From: Sanguibacter hominis ATCC BAA-789
Lineage (GTDB): Bacteria > Actinomycetota > Actinomycetes > Actinomycetales > Cellulomonadaceae
Length of the DNA: 62,986 bases
Direction: 5' to 3'
Assembly (NCBI RefSeq): GCF_012396185.1
Contig: NZ_JAAXOW010000006.1
Coordinates: 1-62,986, forward strand
Positions 4,703 to 37,646 of the stretch are shown one piece after another. How positions within the stretch are numbered: position 1 is the first letter of the stretch; every line of letters starts with the position of its first letter. Under the pieces are notes generated by a model, which saw nothing but the letters and a program-made list of their open reading frames with translations, was not told where the DNA came from and did no database searches. The position numbers were made by a program, and so were the translations under genes.

Positions 4703-5200
4703 ATGACCCTGCCCCGCACGGGGATCGGCGTGGACGTCCACGCCCTCGCCCCCCAGGACGCACCTCGCGAGCTCTGGCTCGCCGGCCTCCACTGGCCCGG
4801 TGAGCGCGGCCTCGCAGGCCACTCCGAGGCCGACGTCGCCGCCCACGCCGCCGCTGACGCCCTGTTCTCCGCATCCGGTCTCGGCGACCTCGGCTCGAAC
4901 TTCGGCACGGCAGCCCCCGAGTGGGCCGGAGCCGCAGGGGCGACCCTCCTCGCCGAGGCCGCTCGTCGGGTCCGCGAGGCGGGGTTCGAGATCGGCAACG
5001 TCGCCGTCCAGGTGATCGGCAACCGCCCGAAGATCGGGACGCGTCGCGCCGAGGCGCAGGACGCCCTGAGCGCCGCCGCCGGCGCACCCGTCACCGTCAC
5101 CGCGACGACCACGGACGGGCTCGGGCTCACGGGCCGCGGCGAGGGGGTCGCCGCGATCGCGACCGCGCTCGTCGTGCCGAGCAGCGCGCCCGGCCGCTGA
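4703..5200 (+). CDS. ispF: 2-C-methyl-D-erythritol 2,4-cyclodiphosphate synthase IspF
   Basis: MEP (non-mevalonate) isoprenoid pathway enzyme that cyclises CDP-ME 2-phosphate to MEcPP with release of CMP. The protein is 165 residues, a normal length. Metal-binding residues are visible in GIGVDVHAL (Asp and His, residues 9-11), followed by [16 protein letters not shown] and GDLGSNF, and [14 protein letters not shown] near the C-terminus. The ATG has GAGGAG at a good distance. A TAACCT box at 4636-4641 may be its -10. Commonly in actinobacteria ispD lies between carD and ispF; here no ispD is present in the window. Confidence 0.94.
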
Positions 5201-5208
5201 CCCCCGCC

Positions 5209-5625
5209 TCAGTGCGTCATCGGACGTCGTGAGCGGGGCAGCCCGCTCACGACGAGGTCGTACGCATCCTCGACGAGCTGCTCGAGCAGCCCGGGATCCA
5301 GGTCCGGGTGCAGCACGACCGACACCCAGTGCTTCTTGTTCATGTGCCAGCCCGGTAGCACGTCGTCGTGCGCCGCGACGAGGCCGGGCACGAGCTCCGG
5401 CTCCGCCTTGAGGTTCACGTGCCAGTGCTCGCCCCCGACCTTCGGGTTCCGGGTGAGCAGCGCGAAGATCTTCTGCGCGACACGGAACGTCTCCGCCCCG
5501 GGACCGAACGGGAAGTCCGACGTCGCGTCCGGCAGGTCGAGGCACAGCAGACGGCAGGCGCGCGCCTCGGGCGACAGGTCGTCGGTCACGAGGTCGCCGG
5601 GCACCGACGCGTCGTCCGCGCTCAC
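5209..5625 (-). CDS. MmcQ/YjbR family protein
   Basis: 138 residues from a GTG that overlaps the stop of the upstream oxidase gene by four bases (GTGA), so the two are probably translationally coupled. The sequence shows the YjbR/CyaY-like fold pattern: a Cys/Leu-rich first helix (ACRLLCLDLPD), FPFGPGAETFRVAQKIFALL, VNLKAEPEL and the typical C-terminal HMNKKHWVSVVL. The family has a double-stranded-DNA-binding-like fold but no settled function. It is co-transcribed with the lactone oxidase 5622-6992, though nothing in the sequence explains why. Confidence 0.85.
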   Translation of the reverse strand: MSADDASVPGDLVTDDLSPEARACRLLCLDLPDATSDFPFGPGAETFRVAQKIFALLTRNPKVGGEHWHVNLKAEPELVPGLVAAHDDVLPGWHMNKKHWVSVVLHPDLDPGLLEQLVEDAYDLVVSGLPRSRRPMTH

Positions 5626-6992
5626 CGGCCGAGCACCCGCTCGAGGTACCGGTTCGTGAAGACCCCGTCCGGGTCGACGGCGTCGCGCACCGCCAGGAAG
5701 TCGTCGAACCGCGGGTAGAGCTCGCGCAGCCGCTCCGCCCCGAGCGTGTGGACCTTGCCCCAGTGCGGCCGCCCGTCGTACGCGGACGCGATCTCCTGCA
5801 CCGCCGCGAAGTACCGCGACGCGTCGGTCCGCCAGAACTGGTGGACCGCGACGTACGCCGTCGGGCGGCCGTACGACGTCGACAGCCACACGTCGTCCGC
5901 CCGTGCGAAACGCACCTCGACGGGGAAGGACACCCGCTCGGCCGTCCGCGCGAACCAGTCCTGGACGTCCCGCAGCACCTCCCCGACCGTGTCGAGCGGT
6001 ACCGCCCACTCGGACTCGACGAACCGCACGCGGCGCCGCGACACGAACACCTCGTACGACGGCGCCGTGAAGCGTCGCGCACCGAGAGCGCGCGACGACA
6101 CCCGGTTGATCGTCGGGATCGCTGCAGGCACGGCGTGCGCGAGGCGGTTCGTCAGCTCGAAGACGCCGTTCGACAGCAGCTCGTCGTCGACCCAGCCGCG
6201 CAGCGCGTCGAGCGGGGCGTCGTCGAGCGCGCGCCGGGCGTTGCGCTTCGTCAGCGCGGTGCGCGTGTGCGGGAACCAGTAGAGCTCGGCATGGTCGCTC
6301 GCGAGGAACGAGCCGTCCGCGACCGCCTCGAGCGCGCGCTCGAGCGGCCACGGCTCTTCGCGCGCCTCGAGCACGTACGCGGGCTCGGCGCCGACCGTCA
6401 CCGCGACGAGGATGCCGAGCGCGCCGAGGCCCAGGCGCGCGGCCTCGAACAGCTCGGTGTTCTCGTGGCGCGACGCACGGACGACGGACCCGTCGGCGAC
6501 GACCACCTCGACCGCGCGCACCTGCGCCGCGAGGCCTGCGCCCGTCCCGGAGTCACCGCCCGTGCCGTGCGTCCCCGTCGAGATCGCGCCCGCGACCGAC
6601 TGCCGGTCGATGTCGCCGAGGTTCGACAGCGCGAGCCCGTGCGACGCGAGCGCGTCGTTGAGCGCGTGCAGCCGGATCCCTGCGCCGACCCGCACCTCGT
6701 GCGTGACACGCCCCTCGGGCGTGGGCAGCCGGACGGGCTGGTCGACGTGGTCGAGTGCGTCGATCGAGAGCATCACCCCGTCCGTCGTCGCGACCGGGGA
6801 GAAGGAGTGCCCCGCGCCGACCGCACGCACGGTCAGACCCAGCGTGCGCGCGCGCTGCACGACCGTCACGACGTCGTCGACCGAGCGTGCCGCGAAGCGG
6901 TGCGCAGGGCTGCAGGACGCCGAGCCGCCCCAGGTCGTCCACGGCTGCTGCGGTGGGCGGGCGACGTCGCCCGCGCGGGAGGAGATGGCCAC
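5622..6992 (-). CDS. FAD-linked oxidoreductase, D-arabinono-1,4-lactone oxidase family
   Basis: Flavoprotein of the vanillyl-alcohol-oxidase superfamily, 456 residues. The FAD_binding_4 domain fills the N-terminal half, with VGAGHSFSPVATTDG (about residues 60-74) and AGAISTGTHGTGG (about 135-147); the ALO domain follows, ending in the hallmark PHWGKVHTL near residue 410. Relatives oxidise aldonolactones (gulono-, arabinono-lactone) or alditols, but the substrate cannot be read from sequence. The GTG start at 6992 gives a normal N-terminus. It is divergent from the PLP protein at 7050 with 57 bases between them, suggesting shared control and perhaps a shared pathway. Confidence 0.9.
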   Translation of the reverse strand: MAISSRAGDVARPPQQPWTTWGGSASCSPAHRFAARSVDDVVTVVQRARTLGLTVRAVGAGHSFSPVATTDGVMLSIDALDHVDQPVRLPTPEGRVTHEVRVGAGIRLHALNDALASHGLALSNLGDIDRQSVAGAISTGTHGTGGDSGTGAGLAAQVRAVEVVVADGSVVRASRHENTELFEAARLGLGALGILVAVTVGAEPAYVLEAREEPWPLERALEAVADGSFLASDHAELYWFPHTRTALTKRNARRALDDAPLDALRGWVDDELLSNGVFELTNRLAHAVPAAIPTINRVSSRALGARRFTAPSYEVFVSRRRVRFVESEWAVPLDTVGEVLRDVQDWFARTAERVSFPVEVRFARADDVWLSTSYGRPTAYVAVHQFWRTDASRYFAAVQEIASAYDGRPHWGKVHTLGAERLRELYPRFDDFLAVRDAVDPDGVFTNRYLERVLGR

Positions 6993-7049
6993 ACCGCACT
7001 ATCCGCGCACGTCGCCGCGTGAGTCAATGGTCCGGGAGAAGGAGGAGCC

Positions 7050-12182: not shown

Positions 12183-13307
<1,125 letters not shown>

Positions 13308-13489
13308 AGCTGTCGCCAATCCCTTCACCGGCAGGTACGTGCCGGACGATCCGAGTGAAGAGTGCCATGTAGCTGCGGGTCCAGTAGATGTCCTCGCTGA
13401 CACGACGTCTGCCGACGGTGGCAGGCGCTACGGGTCATCCTGCCACATCAGACGGGTGCCTCGGAGAGACCCAGGTCACAGACGTCCGG

Positions 13490-14329
13490 TCAGGTGGCCT
13501 GCACCGGCCCGGTCAGCAGGTCGGCGAGGCGCGCCAGCACGTGCGCGGCCTCGTCAGGTCCGGCGACGCGATGCCGGGCGACGGTCTCGCCCGGCCCCAC
13601 CCTGACCGACACGTCGTCGTCGCGGAGGACGGCGAAAGCACGCTCGTCCGTCACGTCGTCGCCCATGTAGAAGACCGCGCGCGCCCCTGCCTCGGCGCGC
13701 AGCGCGTCGAGCGCCTGTCCCTTCGACGTAGCGACGACCCCCGTCTCCACGACGTCCTTGCCGCGCATGGCCGGTAGGCCGAGCGACCCGGACGCCGCGA
13801 CGGCGTCCAGAGAGGCACGTGCCGCGTCGTCGGGCGAGGCGAGGCGGACGTGGAGGACCGCCGCGGTCGGCTTGTGCTCGACCCACGCCCCCTCGGCGCC
13901 CTGCGCGATCGCCTCGAACGCGGCCGTGAGACGTGCCAGCCGCTCCGCCTTGTCCGTGTCCAGGGTGACAGGCGAGTGCTCGAGGCCCTTGGCGGTCATG
14001 TGGCCCCGCTCGGCTCCGTGGCTGCCCACGAGCAGCGTTCCCGCGGGGACGCGGGACACTCGCGCCAGGTCCTCGAGGCGGCGCCCGCTCACGAGGGCGA
14101 GGCGTGCCACCTCAGGAGCGCACGCCGCGAGGCGCGCGAGCGCGGCCGCAGCCCCGGGGGTCGGGCGGGACGCGTCGGGCTGGTCCACCAGCCTCGCGAC
14201 GACGCCGTCGAAGTCGGTCGCGACGAGCACGGGGCCGCTCGCGGCCTCGGGAACGCCGCGAGCGTCGCCCGCGAGGCGGGAGAGGTCGCGCTCGAGAGCG
14301 TCAGGGAGCTGGCGTGCAGGGTCAGGCAC
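13490..14329 (-). CDS. otsB: Trehalose-6-phosphate phosphatase OtsB
   Basis: HAD-superfamily phosphatase that dephosphorylates trehalose 6-phosphate, 279 residues. Motif I is VATDFDGVVARLVDQPD (nucleophile Asp in DFDG, where the second Asp of the usual DxD is also present), motif II LALVSGRRLEDL, then GSHGAERG, and motif IV YMGDDVTDERAF. The C-terminal VRVGPGETVARHRVAGPDE is typical of OtsB. The GTG start overlaps the otsA stop by eight bases, giving an otsA-otsB operon read leftward. Confidence 0.93.
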   Translation of the reverse strand: MPDPARQLPDALERDLSRLAGDARGVPEAASGPVLVATDFDGVVARLVDQPDASRPTPGAAAALARLAACAPEVARLALVSGRRLEDLARVSRVPAGTLLVGSHGAERGHMTAKGLEHSPVTLDTDKAERLARLTAAFEAIAQGAEGAWVEHKPTAAVLHVRLASPDDAARASLDAVAASGSLGLPAMRGKDVVETGVVATSKGQALDALRAEAGARAVFYMGDDVTDERAFAVLRDDDVSVRVGPGETVARHRVAGPDEAAHVLARLADLLTGPVQAT

Positions 14330-34986: not shown

Positions 34987-35706
34987 TCAGCTGCCCGGCA
35001 GCTCGCGCAACAGGTAGCCCACGCCGCGCTTCGTCTGGATGAGCGGGCTGGGCTTGACGCCGTCGACCGGGGCGTCGATCTTCCGGCGCAGGTAGGAGAT
35101 GTACGACTCGACGATGTTCGCGTCGCCCGCCCAGTCGTACTGCCAGACGTGGTCGAGGATCTGCGCCTTGGAGAGCACCCGGTTGGGGTTGAGCATGAGG
35201 TAGCGCAGCAGCTTGAACTCGGTCGGGGAGAGGTCGATCAGCCGACCGGCGCGGCGCACCTCGTGCGTGTCGTCGTCGAGCTCGAGGTCCGCGAAGCGCA
35301 GGACCGCGTCGCCGTCCGCCGCGTCGTCGCCGCGCGTGCGGCGCAGCACCGCGCGGATCCGCGCGATGACCTCCTCGAGGGAGAACGGCTTCGTGACGTA
35401 GTCGTCGCCCCCGACCGTGAGCCCCGTGATCTTGTCCTGCGTGTCGTCGCGCGCCGTGAGGAACAGGACCGGCATCGTCTGGCCTTTCTCCCGCATCCGC
35501 GTCGTGACGGTGAAGCCGTCCATGTCGGGGAGCATGACGTCGAGCAGCACGAGGTCCGGGAGCACCTCACGGGCGAGCCGCAGCGCGCTCGCGCCGTCGG
35601 CAGCCGTATGGATCTCGAACCCTGCGAACCTCAAGGAGGTCGCGAGGAGCTCACGGATGTTCGGCTCGTCGTCGACGACGAGAAGTCGCGCCTCGGTCGT
35701 GGTCAT
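34987..35706 (-). CDS. OmpR/PhoB-family response regulator
   Basis: 239 residues. The receiver has VVDDEP (Asp12, Asp13), phospho-acceptor Asp56 (LVLLDVMLPDMDGF), Thr in FLTARDD and Lys in VTKPFS. The C-terminal winged helix includes LSPTEFKLLRYLMLNPNRVL, and ESYISYLRRKID with RGVGYLLRE after it. It resembles TcrX/MprA-type actinobacterial regulators. The ATG at 35706 is chosen because the receiver begins at once. Three CTGA half-sites in exact 11-bp phase lie 23-50 bases upstream, suggesting autoregulation. Confidence 0.95.
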   Translation of the reverse strand: MTTTEARLLVVDDEPNIRELLATSLRFAGFEIHTAADGASALRLAREVLPDLVLLDVMLPDMDGFTVTTRMREKGQTMPVLFLTARDDTQDKITGLTVGGDDYVTKPFSLEEVIARIRAVLRRTRGDDAADGDAVLRFADLELDDDTHEVRRAGRLIDLSPTEFKLLRYLMLNPNRVLSKAQILDHVWQYDWAGDANIVESYISYLRRKIDAPVDGVKPSPLIQTKRGVGYLLRELPGS

Positions 35707-35755: not shown

Positions 35756-35819
35756 TCGGCGGTGGGCGCGGCCCGCACCCGCCCGCCCCCGGAGGCTCCT
35801 CCGGTTCCTCTGTACCTCC

Positions 35820-35874
35820 GGTCCCCCTGGTCCCCCTGGTCCCCCTGGTCCCCCCGGTCCCCCCCGGTCCCCCC
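35820..35874. repeat. Tandem GGTCCCCCT repeat
   Basis: Three perfect 9-base units (35820-35846) followed by three with the last T changed to C or C inserted (35847-35874). A minisatellite-like, slippage-prone tract. Confidence 0.9.
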
Positions 35875-35880
35875 AGCCGA

Positions 35881-35925
35881 GAATGCGCATGATCTGCAGC
35901 AGATCGCAGCAGTTTGTGCGCATTC
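35881..35925. repeat. 45-nt palindromic element, upstream copy
   Basis: Ends GAATGCGCA (35881-35889) and TGCGCATTC (35917-35925), with an inner odd palindrome GATCTGC-A-GCAGATC (35891-35905). Same length and same terminal arms as the element at 36974-37018 on the far side of the DUF559 gene. Confidence 0.85.
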
Positions 35926-35928
35926 ATC

Positions 35929-35958
35929 GGGGACGGGGACGGGGACGGGGACGGGGAC
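35929..35958. repeat. Tandem GGGGAC hexamer, five copies
   Basis: Five perfect GGGGAC units directly after the palindromic element. Its G-runs could form a G-quadruplex on the plus strand. Confidence 0.92.
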
Positions 35959-36078
35959 GGCCTGGTGTCCCGGGCGTCCGCGCGCTGGAGGTCGTCCACA
36001 GGCAGTCGTCGGGACGTCCGTCATCGACAGAGCGTGCCGCGCCACCCGCCCGGCCGTTCGCTGCGGCACGGTGCGGAG

Positions 36079-36995
36079 ATGACTCAGCTGTCCCCTCGGT
36101 GGGTACCCCCCGACGCACGCGGCGGCGTCTTCACGGCCGCGCAAGCTCTGGCGGGCGGCGCCAGCGCCGGGGTGGTCCGCTACCGGCTGGGCGCGGGCAT
36201 GTGGGCCCGTGTGGTCGGAAGGGGGATCCGACTGGCCGACGACCCGCCGCATCGCCGCACCGACGCGTACGCGCGTGGCTGACCTGGCCGAGCGCCGTGC
36301 TCTGCCGCGAGTCGGCGTTGCGGTTTCACCTGCCGCGGCTCCCGGCGGAGCTGCGCGAGCGACCCGTGCACGTCTGGGTGTCACGCCCGATGCGCGAGGT
36401 CGGAGGCCTTGTACCGCACCGGTTCCGGCTTCCGGTGGACGACGTCGTGGACCGGGACGGAGGGCGTGTCACCACAGTCGAGCGCGCCGCTGTCGACACG
36501 CTCGCCGGGCTCGGCGCACACGACGCCAGACGTCTGATCGCGTGGTTGTTCACCCGGAACGTCCTCTCGAGGGAGCACCTGCTCGCTCGGCTCGAGACGC
36601 ACCCGAAGATGTGGGGCAACGTGCAGCTTCGGCGACTCGCGGAGCTGACCCGGGGCGGGGCGCTGAGTCCGGCGGAACAGATGCTCCATGAGATCTTGCG
36701 AGCCGCGGGGCTCACCGGGTGGCAACCCAACATGGCGGTCTTCGACGCGATGGGCGTGATCGGGTCGGTCGACGTGCTGTTCGACGCGGCGCGCGTCGCC
36801 ATCGAGGTCGACGGGCGTGCGTATCACGGCGTCGACCGGTTCCAGTCCGATCGTGAGCGGGACAACCGGCTCGTCGGTGCCGGCTACGTCGTCCTCCACT
36901 TCACCTGGGAGGACCTGCACAGTCGGTCCGATTATGTGATCCACCAGGTCCGCGCGGCCCTCAGCAGGAGCAAGAATGCGCAGTATCCGTTGTGA
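36079..36995 (+). pseudogene. DUF559 (Vsr-like endonuclease fold) protein gene, frameshifted
   Basis: The frame from ATG 36079 (GGAG just upstream) encodes an AbiEi-type N-terminal region (GGVFTAAQALAGGASAGVVR, RVVGRGIRLADDPPHRRTDAYARG) and stops at 36280-36282. The homologous continuation WLTWPSAVLCRESALRFHLP runs in another frame from 36276 to 36995, ending with the DUF559 domain: LSPAEQMLHEIL, GSVDVLFDAARVAIEVDGRAYH (Asp, Glu-Val-Asp core), FQSDRERDNRLVGAGYVVL, FTWEDL. A net gain of one base or loss of two (one CG of TACGCGCGTGG, 36268-36278) would restore about 305 residues. It could be a pseudogene, phase-variable, or a sequencing error. The last codons lie inside the downstream palindrome. 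Confidence 0.82.
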
Positions 36996-37018
36996 TCAGC
37001 AACAGATACTGCGCATTC
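36974..37018. repeat. 45-nt palindromic element, downstream copy
   Basis: Near-complete hairpin: arms of 15 bases (AGAATGCGCAGTATC at 36973-36987 with its complement at 37005-37019), then GTTG/CAAC, and a TGATCAG loop. It contains the last codons and the stop (TGA, 36993-36995) of the DUF559 frame, so it may also act as terminator. Outer nine bases match the copy at 35881-35925. Confidence 0.88.
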
Positions 37019-37070
37019 TCGGGAGCTCGGGAGCTCGGGATCCGGAACCCTGGGACCCGGGATCCTGGGG

Positions 37071-37646
37071 TCAGAGGTAGCGCAGCGGGTCGAACTCCTC
37101 GATCGGGATGATGCGCACGCGCGGGAGGAGCGTGTTGAACGCGTTGACGTCACCCTCGAGGTCGAAGAACTCGAGCCCGCGCTCGGCGAGCTCCGCCATG
37201 TGCGAGTTGACGAACTCGCGGAAGCACAGCAACGCCACGCGGCGCGTGCCGTCGAGCAGCGCGTCCACCTGCGGGATGAAGTCGCCGTCGTGGCTCGCGA
37301 GGATGACGTCCGCGTCGCGGGGGACGAGTGCCTCGAGGGTGCGCTGGATACCCATGTCGACGACCTTGAGGCCCGGACCGCCCGCGAGGGGGATCGGCCG
37401 GTAGCTCATCGCGAGCAGCGCCTGCACGAACGGCATCGGCATCTGGCCCGAGGTGGCGTTGAGGAAGAACAGTCCCTGGACCGGCTGGTCCCACACGCTC
37501 GCCGCGAAGTCGCTGATCCGGTCCCAGCGCGGCCGCTCGTCCGGGGTGGGCCGATGGCCCAGGACGTTGACGCCGAGAGTGGCGTCGATGTTCTCACCGT
37601 CGACGATGAGATAGGTCTTGCGTGGGGCCGAGCTCAGATCCGACAT
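37071..37646 (-). CDS. NYN-domain (PIN-like) protein
   Basis: 191 residues, a single NYN domain of the LabA/DUF88 type. Acidic metal-site residues are in YLIVDGENID (Asp and Glu near residues 16-18) and DADVILASHDGDFIPQVDAL (Asp pair). RRVALLCFREFVNSHMAEL follows, and the C-terminus is PIEEFDPLRYL. NYN proteins are predicted ribonucleases acting on RNA in turnover or processing; the substrate is unknown. The ATG at 37646 begins just before the fold. It stands alone, reading toward the DUF559 islet. Confidence 0.9.
   Translation of the reverse strand: MSDLSSAPRKTYLIVDGENIDATLGVNVLGHRPTPDERPRWDRISDFAASVWDQPVQGLFFLNATSGQMPMPFVQALLAMSYRPIPLAGGPGLKVVDMGIQRTLEALVPRDADVILASHDGDFIPQVDALLDGTRRVALLCFREFVNSHMAELAERGLEFFDLEGDVNAFNTLLPRVRIIPIEEFDPLRYL

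Follow-up and report, generated by a model that had tools for sequence, protein, structure and literature searches.

The main finding of this work is a gene of the DUF559 family lying between two matching palindromes in a window of 62,986 nucleotides from Sanguibacter hominis ATCC BAA-789 (the whole stretch of DNA analysed), an arrangement that recurs, with other palindromes, at related genes. We consider it reasonably probable that a DUF559 nuclease gene of this kind possesses a palindrome family of its own, in the manner of the repetitive extragenic palindromes (REPs) and the REP-associated tyrosine transposases (RAYTs), with an unrelated enzyme in the place of the transposase. Bracketing of the gene at many loci, specificity of the palindrome for the gene, dispersal of copies, joint divergence of palindrome and protein, and an empty site were observed directly, as was one apparent exchange of the whole unit. 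The likeness to REP/RAYT pairs had been suggested by a first-pass annotation of the sequence, and it is supported by the clustering of palindromes at DUF559 genes, the empty site and the joint change with the protein. The same annotation supposed that such a unit might be undescribed; the literature, of which subscription papers and preprints were thinly covered, yielded no earlier account of palindromes beside DUF559 genes, and two papers that mention both DUF559 and the stem palindrom- (PMC8861277; PMC9454445) are not taken, from the parts available, as earlier descriptions.

The association was measured at the loci of homologues. The family set comprises 42 loci, namely 41 matches at E <= 2.5e-30 (the window's own included) and locus L034, and the class set 29 loci (L237-L265), from which the window's own match was left out. 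As controls, 984 open reading frames (ORFs) of 750-1200 bp were taken from samples of the genus set, formed by the window's genome (G000, 2.98 Mb, the window lying on contig C6) and five others (G127-G131); these controls are the longest open frames, and some are not real genes. For each locus the best local score between the 300-bp flanks was computed in direct and inverted sense, palindromes scoring high in both; the larger score had to exceed 17 in the first measure and the smaller one 15 in a stricter palindromic test. This procedure supersedes an earlier comparison of flanks in wide windows, which was blurred by conserved neighbours. A repeat shared by the upstream and downstream flanks was found at 25 of the 42 family loci compared with 15 of the 984 control ORFs, a clustering that the first-pass annotation had proposed to look for, and the stricter test was passed by 20 family loci and two controls (0/600 in a smaller control set). 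Among the class loci, 15/29 passed the first measure and 10/29 the stricter one, and with 500-bp flanks 28 family loci passed against 38 of 965 controls. In the 25 passing family loci the shared element has a median length of 50 bp and begins a median of 152 bp 5' of the start codon (range 103-292 bp); its downstream counterpart begins a median of 2 bp past the stop codon, with 11 of the 25 extending into the stop or the last codons. For the window gene, the start used in this set lies in the wrong frame, which puts its position in error by 24 bp.

The palindromes bracketing homologues are roughly 35-70 bp long and specific to each gene. A distant DUF559 gene of Pseudonocardia oroxyli lies between two 67-bp palindromes that agree at 64 of the 67 bases, and one more place in that genome carries a matching half-site. 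Weak DUF559 relatives are accompanied in the same way, L168 (G000:C1:1347105) and L172 (G129:C1:1871327), both below the Pfam cut-off, by CGAGGTAGGGC palindromes, and L174 and L175, of which the former lies above and the latter below that cut-off, by TGAGTGCA palindromes. L168 gives the window's genome another DUF559-like open frame besides the gene of the window, bracketed by GAGGTAGGGC palindromes of its own, and the same bracketing is seen at L172 in G129.

Palindrome and protein change together. Palindromes are common (score >= 14) to five of the six gene pairs with at least 60% protein identity and to only one of the 294 pairs below it, and the Mantel correlation of palindrome with protein (rho 0.22) was reached by one of 2000 permutations. 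The 25 genes of this comparison had been chosen for a high score between their two flanks, so that the average of 26.4 between a gene's own two flanks, compared with 8.1 between different genes, is inflated by the choice of genes, an effect that does not reach the pair-sharing counts. Several gene-palindrome pairs may coexist in one genome, as in G128 with L029, L043 and L044. The expectation that the exact GAATGCGCA palindrome of the window would accompany DUF559 genes in general did not hold: across 221 genomes the pattern gave, beyond the window, a single match each in G208 and G217, and no homologue was present in the 3-kb loci around these two matches. A universal marker was therefore rejected, each gene having its own palindrome. 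The first-pass annotation had also named a general repeat with no link to DUF559 genes as the outcome that would speak against its reading; the palindromes are indeed dispersed repeats, but the families flanking a gene match that gene and change with its protein, a mixed though favourable result.

The proteins themselves are about 300 residues long. A profile search placed DUF559 in all 29 aligned homologues, AbiEi_4 in 21 and Vsr in one, and the AbiEi model of PADLOC matched 28 of the 29. A D, an E-x-D and an H residue are invariant in this alignment, which does not contain the window gene, and they fit a PD-(D/E)XK nuclease. The homologues are thus predicted to combine a winged helix with a PD-(D/E)XK nuclease, with fitting residues; both assignments rest on profiles, and one solved relative, an endonuclease-like protein (3hrl_A), was found. 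The proteins are widespread: at E <= 1e-5 the DUF559 part had matches in 155 of the 220 genomes searched within the family, and at E <= 1e-10 the protein profile had them in 209 of 296 genomes across the class.

In the window, the two palindromes (family P1) agree in length and in their outer nine bases, as first described. The pattern GAATGCGCA-N20..35-TGCGCATTC matches only these two sites and appeared in none of 100 shuffles, and a shorter pattern with AATGCGCA ends finds the same two sites alone in the whole genome. Both fold strongly as hairpins (z of -5.4 and -7.5 on the + strand, with none of 200 shuffles equally stable), and with 4 bp added the pair forms a 49-nt inverted repeat of one another, 78% complementary. 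When up to three mismatches are allowed, a third site appears at G000:C2:317504, where the spacer measures about 227 bp, compared with 111 bp and no P1 copy in G129. Relaxed matches number nine in G127, six in G131 and four in G128, the last being left out of the pairing analysis as resembling other families or chance. In the 18 P1-like copies retained, which were chosen by a pattern requiring paired ends, pairing is kept in 86% of cells compared with at most 51% for slid pairings, and their covariation score was equalled by none of 500 shuffles.

A single gene lies between the two palindromes, and its DUF559 domain (PF04480) was recognized with an E value of 3.1e-7. The first-pass annotation was right about this gene's being alone there, about its AbiEi-like and DUF559 parts and about its last codons and stop lying inside the downstream palindrome; the gene is not intact, however, being frameshifted at about 36270-36282, where the intact relative L006 aligns in two frames (residues 1-66, then the rest). 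The unit in this window is therefore probably in decay, provided that the frameshift does not stem from a fault of the assembly.

Copies of the palindromes occur well beyond the genes. The half-site CGATAGCSGATCSG of P2, the palindrome of genes L044 (G128) and L046 (G130), has, with one mismatch allowed, 165 matches in G128 and 148 in G130, and 1, 4, 0 and 3 in G000, G127, G129 and G131, so that about 80 P2 palindromes stand against four DUF559 genes in G128. In samples of about 400 kb, amounting to about 12-14% of each genome, P5 (gene L029) gave five copies in G128 only, P6 (gene L038) 12 in G129 only and P3 (L039/L040) three in G131 only. Counts of P4 in these samples were discarded, having matched GC-rich sequence generally; a single P2 match in the G131 sample was taken as noise, and a single P9 match in G128 is uncertain. 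Of 47 half-sites of P2, P3, P5, P9 and P10, 38 fell outside called genes and nine inside, in samples of which 82% was called coding by a crude script that yielded no half-sites for P6. Neighbouring copies, among the matches listed, are often 60-100 bp apart, as in REP clusters. Copy numbers thus range from a few to about 80 by half-site count, mainly in intergenic positions, and some of the genomes concerned contain no visible cognate gene. A Y1 transposase (PF01797, E <= 0.01) is absent from five of the six genus genomes, and dependence of the palindromes on such an enzyme was rejected on that ground; the sole Y1 gene of the set lies at G000:C7:32335-32700, on contig C7 and not on the window's C6.

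Occupied and empty alleles of the window site were both seen. In the close relative G129 the place of the gene is taken by a spacer of about 95 bp with neither gene nor palindrome, next to a 191-residue protein 96% identical to the window's, which provides an empty, syntenic site of the kind that the first-pass annotation had suggested checking for. In G131 and G128 this position is occupied by a DUF559 gene of the same orientation, with other palindromes, and G130 carries a pair of palindromes from another family there and lacks the gene. Different families also lie around the same 191-aa gene at L052 2108-2243 (G128), L050 1394-1451 (G131) and L051 1380-1428 (G130), as if its surroundings were a favoured palindrome site. 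The tree pairs the window gene with L006 (G131) as its sister (support 100/98), L029 (G128) not being resolved with them, and inheritance by descent, combined with losses, is therefore the likely history of the site. G131 (L228) and Flavimobilis marinus (L227), a member of the genus, differ at 12 positions per kb from the upstream palindrome to just past the downstream one and at 72 per kb elsewhere, the lowest 1-kb window starting outside 4800-7000 having 37 differences per kb. Such near-identity within the unit, set against much greater divergence around it, points to a recent exchange in which gene and palindromes were transferred together, the palindromes forming its limits. The idea of a small selfish unit is accordingly retained in part: one of five orthologous pairs appears to have exchanged gene and palindromes together, and the sister relationship at the window site fits descent with losses, which leaves the notion of a single jumping unit less well supported than first supposed.

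Previous studies of other systems place these observations in context. As far as the accessible parts of the sources go, RAYTs are HuH tyrosine enzymes, as a rule encoded by a single-copy gene for whose own mobility there is no evidence; their REPs measure 20-50 nt and carry a tetranucleotide tag, and the mechanism of REP spread is unsolved (PMC8266576; PMC3733652), and TnpA_REP and its palindrome co-evolve (PMC8266576). The likeness lies in a single enzyme gene with palindromes on either side, further copies of which are scattered between genes, often in pairs, and in the co-evolution of enzyme and palindrome. Flanking by cognate palindromes was found at the 25 (20 by the stricter test) family and 15 (10) class loci mentioned, and many mostly intergenic copies were found for P2 in G128 and G130 and a number of P6 copies in G129. 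In contrast, the enzyme that defines REP/RAYT pairs is not the one found here, an AbiEi-like winged helix with a DUF559 PD-(D/E)XK domain standing in place of the HuH tyrosine enzyme; several gene-palindrome pairs occur per genome (G128), and no common GTAG or CGTC tag was seen, by eye, among the gene-linked palindromes. The orphan family P9 does contain GTAG. Elements of the IS200/IS605 type likewise have a nuclease gene between hairpin ends, whereas here no Y1 TnpA lies between the ends and palindromes far exceed genes. With type IV toxin-antitoxin systems the homologues share the N-terminal winged helix, and the promoter of AbiEi contains inverted repeats to which the protein binds; they differ in the nuclease fusion, in palindromes at both ends and genome-wide, and in that no AbiEii-type nucleotidyltransferase partner was present among the neighbours of the window gene, the only neighbours covered. 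VsrA of Caulobacter, a DUF559 protein of the same nuclease fold family, is tied to cytosine methylation according to the available part of its description (PMC12907096), a link that sets it apart, and the stem palindrom- is absent from the main text of that paper. Freestanding homing endonucleases are single nuclease genes present or absent at one site, as is the present gene, for which one unit exchange was seen; unlike them, it has cognate palindromes that spread without it.

How such a system might work can be outlined. The winged-helix part would bind the cognate palindrome, by analogy with AbiEi antitoxins, which bind inverted repeats, and the PD-(D/E)XK part would nick or cut at the palindrome or at a target; repair could then place copies of the palindrome at further intergenic positions and, now and then, carry the complete unit from one lineage to another. 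The nuclease would thereby be the spreader, and the palindromes non-autonomous elements living off it. The binding of AbiEi proteins to inverted repeats in their own promoter, reported in the accessible part of PMC7319586, makes recognition of the palindrome plausible and likewise favours an autoregulatory explanation. We hypothesize, with doubt slightly outweighing confidence, that Actinomycetes harbour a second, independently evolved REP-like class, in which winged-helix and PD-(D/E)XK (DUF559) nucleases each maintain and spread private palindromes by cutting and repair and not by HuH strand transfer, and that this is the purpose of DUF559 in these bacteria. Despite being so common (209/296 class genomes), DUF559 is still labelled by Pfam as of unknown function; if each gene carries a cognate palindrome, that function becomes directly testable, with a predicted substrate per gene. 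If true, the hypothesis would mean that the way of life of REP/RAYT pairs evolved on two occasions, with enzymes unrelated to each other, would explain dispersed palindromes in genomes without a Y1 transposase, and would supply many natural protein-DNA recognition pairs.

Several results weigh against a nuclease that owns and spreads its palindromes. The first measure was failed by 17/42 family and 14/29 class loci, and with 500-bp flanks 14/42 and 14/29 still fail (38/965 controls passing), so that roughly a third to half of loci lack a shared element; part of these misses arise because the gene ends were wrong in the script, as at L029 and L038, which carry palindromes on both sides. For P1, pairs changed on both sides in 10 of 20 cases, a count reached by 35 of 500 shuffles. 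Only three P1 sites exist in the window's genome, far from the many dispersed copies of a REP family, and no clear cognate gene accompanies the P1-like palindromes of G127 (nine sites) and G131 (six). The G127 sample of about 400 kb yielded no P3, although G127 carries the P3 gene. P6-like matches occupy seven other places in G000, five of them on both strands, all missed by the 422-kb sample, and no P6-type gene is among the Pfam DUF559 matches of that genome. The dispersed families P9 (CGACTCGTAG), P10 (ACGGATTGACG) and P12 (CGCGACTTCGTCA) have no known cognate gene either; gene-less families may be orphans after gene loss, or a sign of another enzyme. Clear bracketing by palindromes was also present at one of the 15 controls scoring above 17, an EVE + NOV_C gene (Pfam) with P2 flanks. 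No unit exchange appeared in four of the five orthologous pairs, as judged from BLAST blocks only. Finally, the contact between DUF559 and palindrome is deduced from sequence, and the flanking copies may instead serve as operators or terminators.

These points bear unequally on the other explanations. If the protein is a repressor of the AbiEi type with a nuclease attached, the palindromes could be its operators, the downstream one serving also as a terminator and the dispersed copies as a regulon or by-products. Such autoregulation would suit the AbiEi_4 and PADLOC matches (21/29 and 28/29), the promoter binding of AbiEi (PMC7319586, as far as accessible) and an upstream element beginning 103-292 bp before the start codon; by itself it gives no account of the second copy at the stop codon, of about 80 dispersed copies in paired arrangements or of a unit exchange with palindrome edges, and we regard it as unlikely. 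The exchange and the empty site in G129 would be better explained by homing, in which DUF559 cuts a gene-less or divergent allele and recombination copies the unit in, the palindromes marking or protecting its edges without being mobile alone. Vsr-like nucleases are known homing enzymes, and the 1.1-kb block of near-identity between F. marinus and isolate 3-424-3Z is bounded by palindromes; nevertheless, the excess of palindromes over genes in G128 (about 80 P2 palindromes, four DUF559 genes), the restriction of exchange to one of five pairs and the sister position of the window gene and L006 at one site, which fits vertical descent, make this quite unlikely.

The families without a known gene (P9, P10, P12, and P6 in the window's genome) and the different gene bracketed by P2 would agree with palindromes spread by another enzyme, such as an unknown transposase, or by replication slippage, with DUF559 genes sitting among them or captured. 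Random capture, however, would not be expected to give two-sided, gene-specific matching and divergence in step with the protein, control ORFs are rarely bracketed (2/984 in the stricter test) and a Y1 transposase is missing from five of the six genus genomes; we judge this origin very unlikely. That the palindromes are ordinary transcription terminators or chance palindromes seems hardly credible: both window copies fold strongly and palindromes resembling terminators are frequent in these genomes, but the sequence is common to both ends of one gene and rarely to other genes, and control ORFs seldom show such bracketing. As a full explanation, chance or plain terminators were rejected by the shuffles, the pair-sharing counts and the control ORFs.

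The features located in the window and the related loci are collected in the table. The gene is flanked by a response regulator (34987-35706) and by the conserved 191-residue protein (37071-37646), which has no NCBIfam match and is presumably NYN/LabA-like.

Table. Positions of the palindromes, gene parts and repeats in the window, and of related loci elsewhere in the genus genomes.
Feature	Position	Strand	Remarks
Upstream cognate palindrome (P1), 45 bp	35881..35925	no strand	153 bp 5' of ATG; matches downstream copy
Downstream cognate palindrome (P1), 45 bp	36974..37018	no strand	overlaps last codons and stop of gene
AbiEi-like winged-helix N-terminal part	36079..36282	+	ATG 36079, stop 36280-36282; 53% identity to L006 residues 1-66
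Remainder of gene, other frame	36270..36995	+	DUF559 (Vsr-like PD-(D/E)XK) 36666-36962; TGA 36993-36995
GGTCCCC-type simple repeats	35812..35872	no strand	between upstream palindrome and response-regulator gene; seen by eye and in repeat listing
Further G/C-rich simple repeats	~35926-35960, ~37019-37070		seen by eye and in repeat listing
EVE + NOV_C gene bracketed by P2	L193 (G128:C15:230000-249999)		ORF 13145-14060 of reverse complement
Loci of P9, P10 and P12	L098, L103, L051 (G130); L182, L185, L193 (G128); L120, L125, L131 (G131)		

The EVE + NOV_C gene may represent a second kind of cargo or a coincidence in G128, a genome rich in P2. G/C-rich simple repeats of the GGTCCC/GGGACC kind adjoin all three P1 palindromes of the window's genome, those of the third copy lying at about 10050-10150 of L215.
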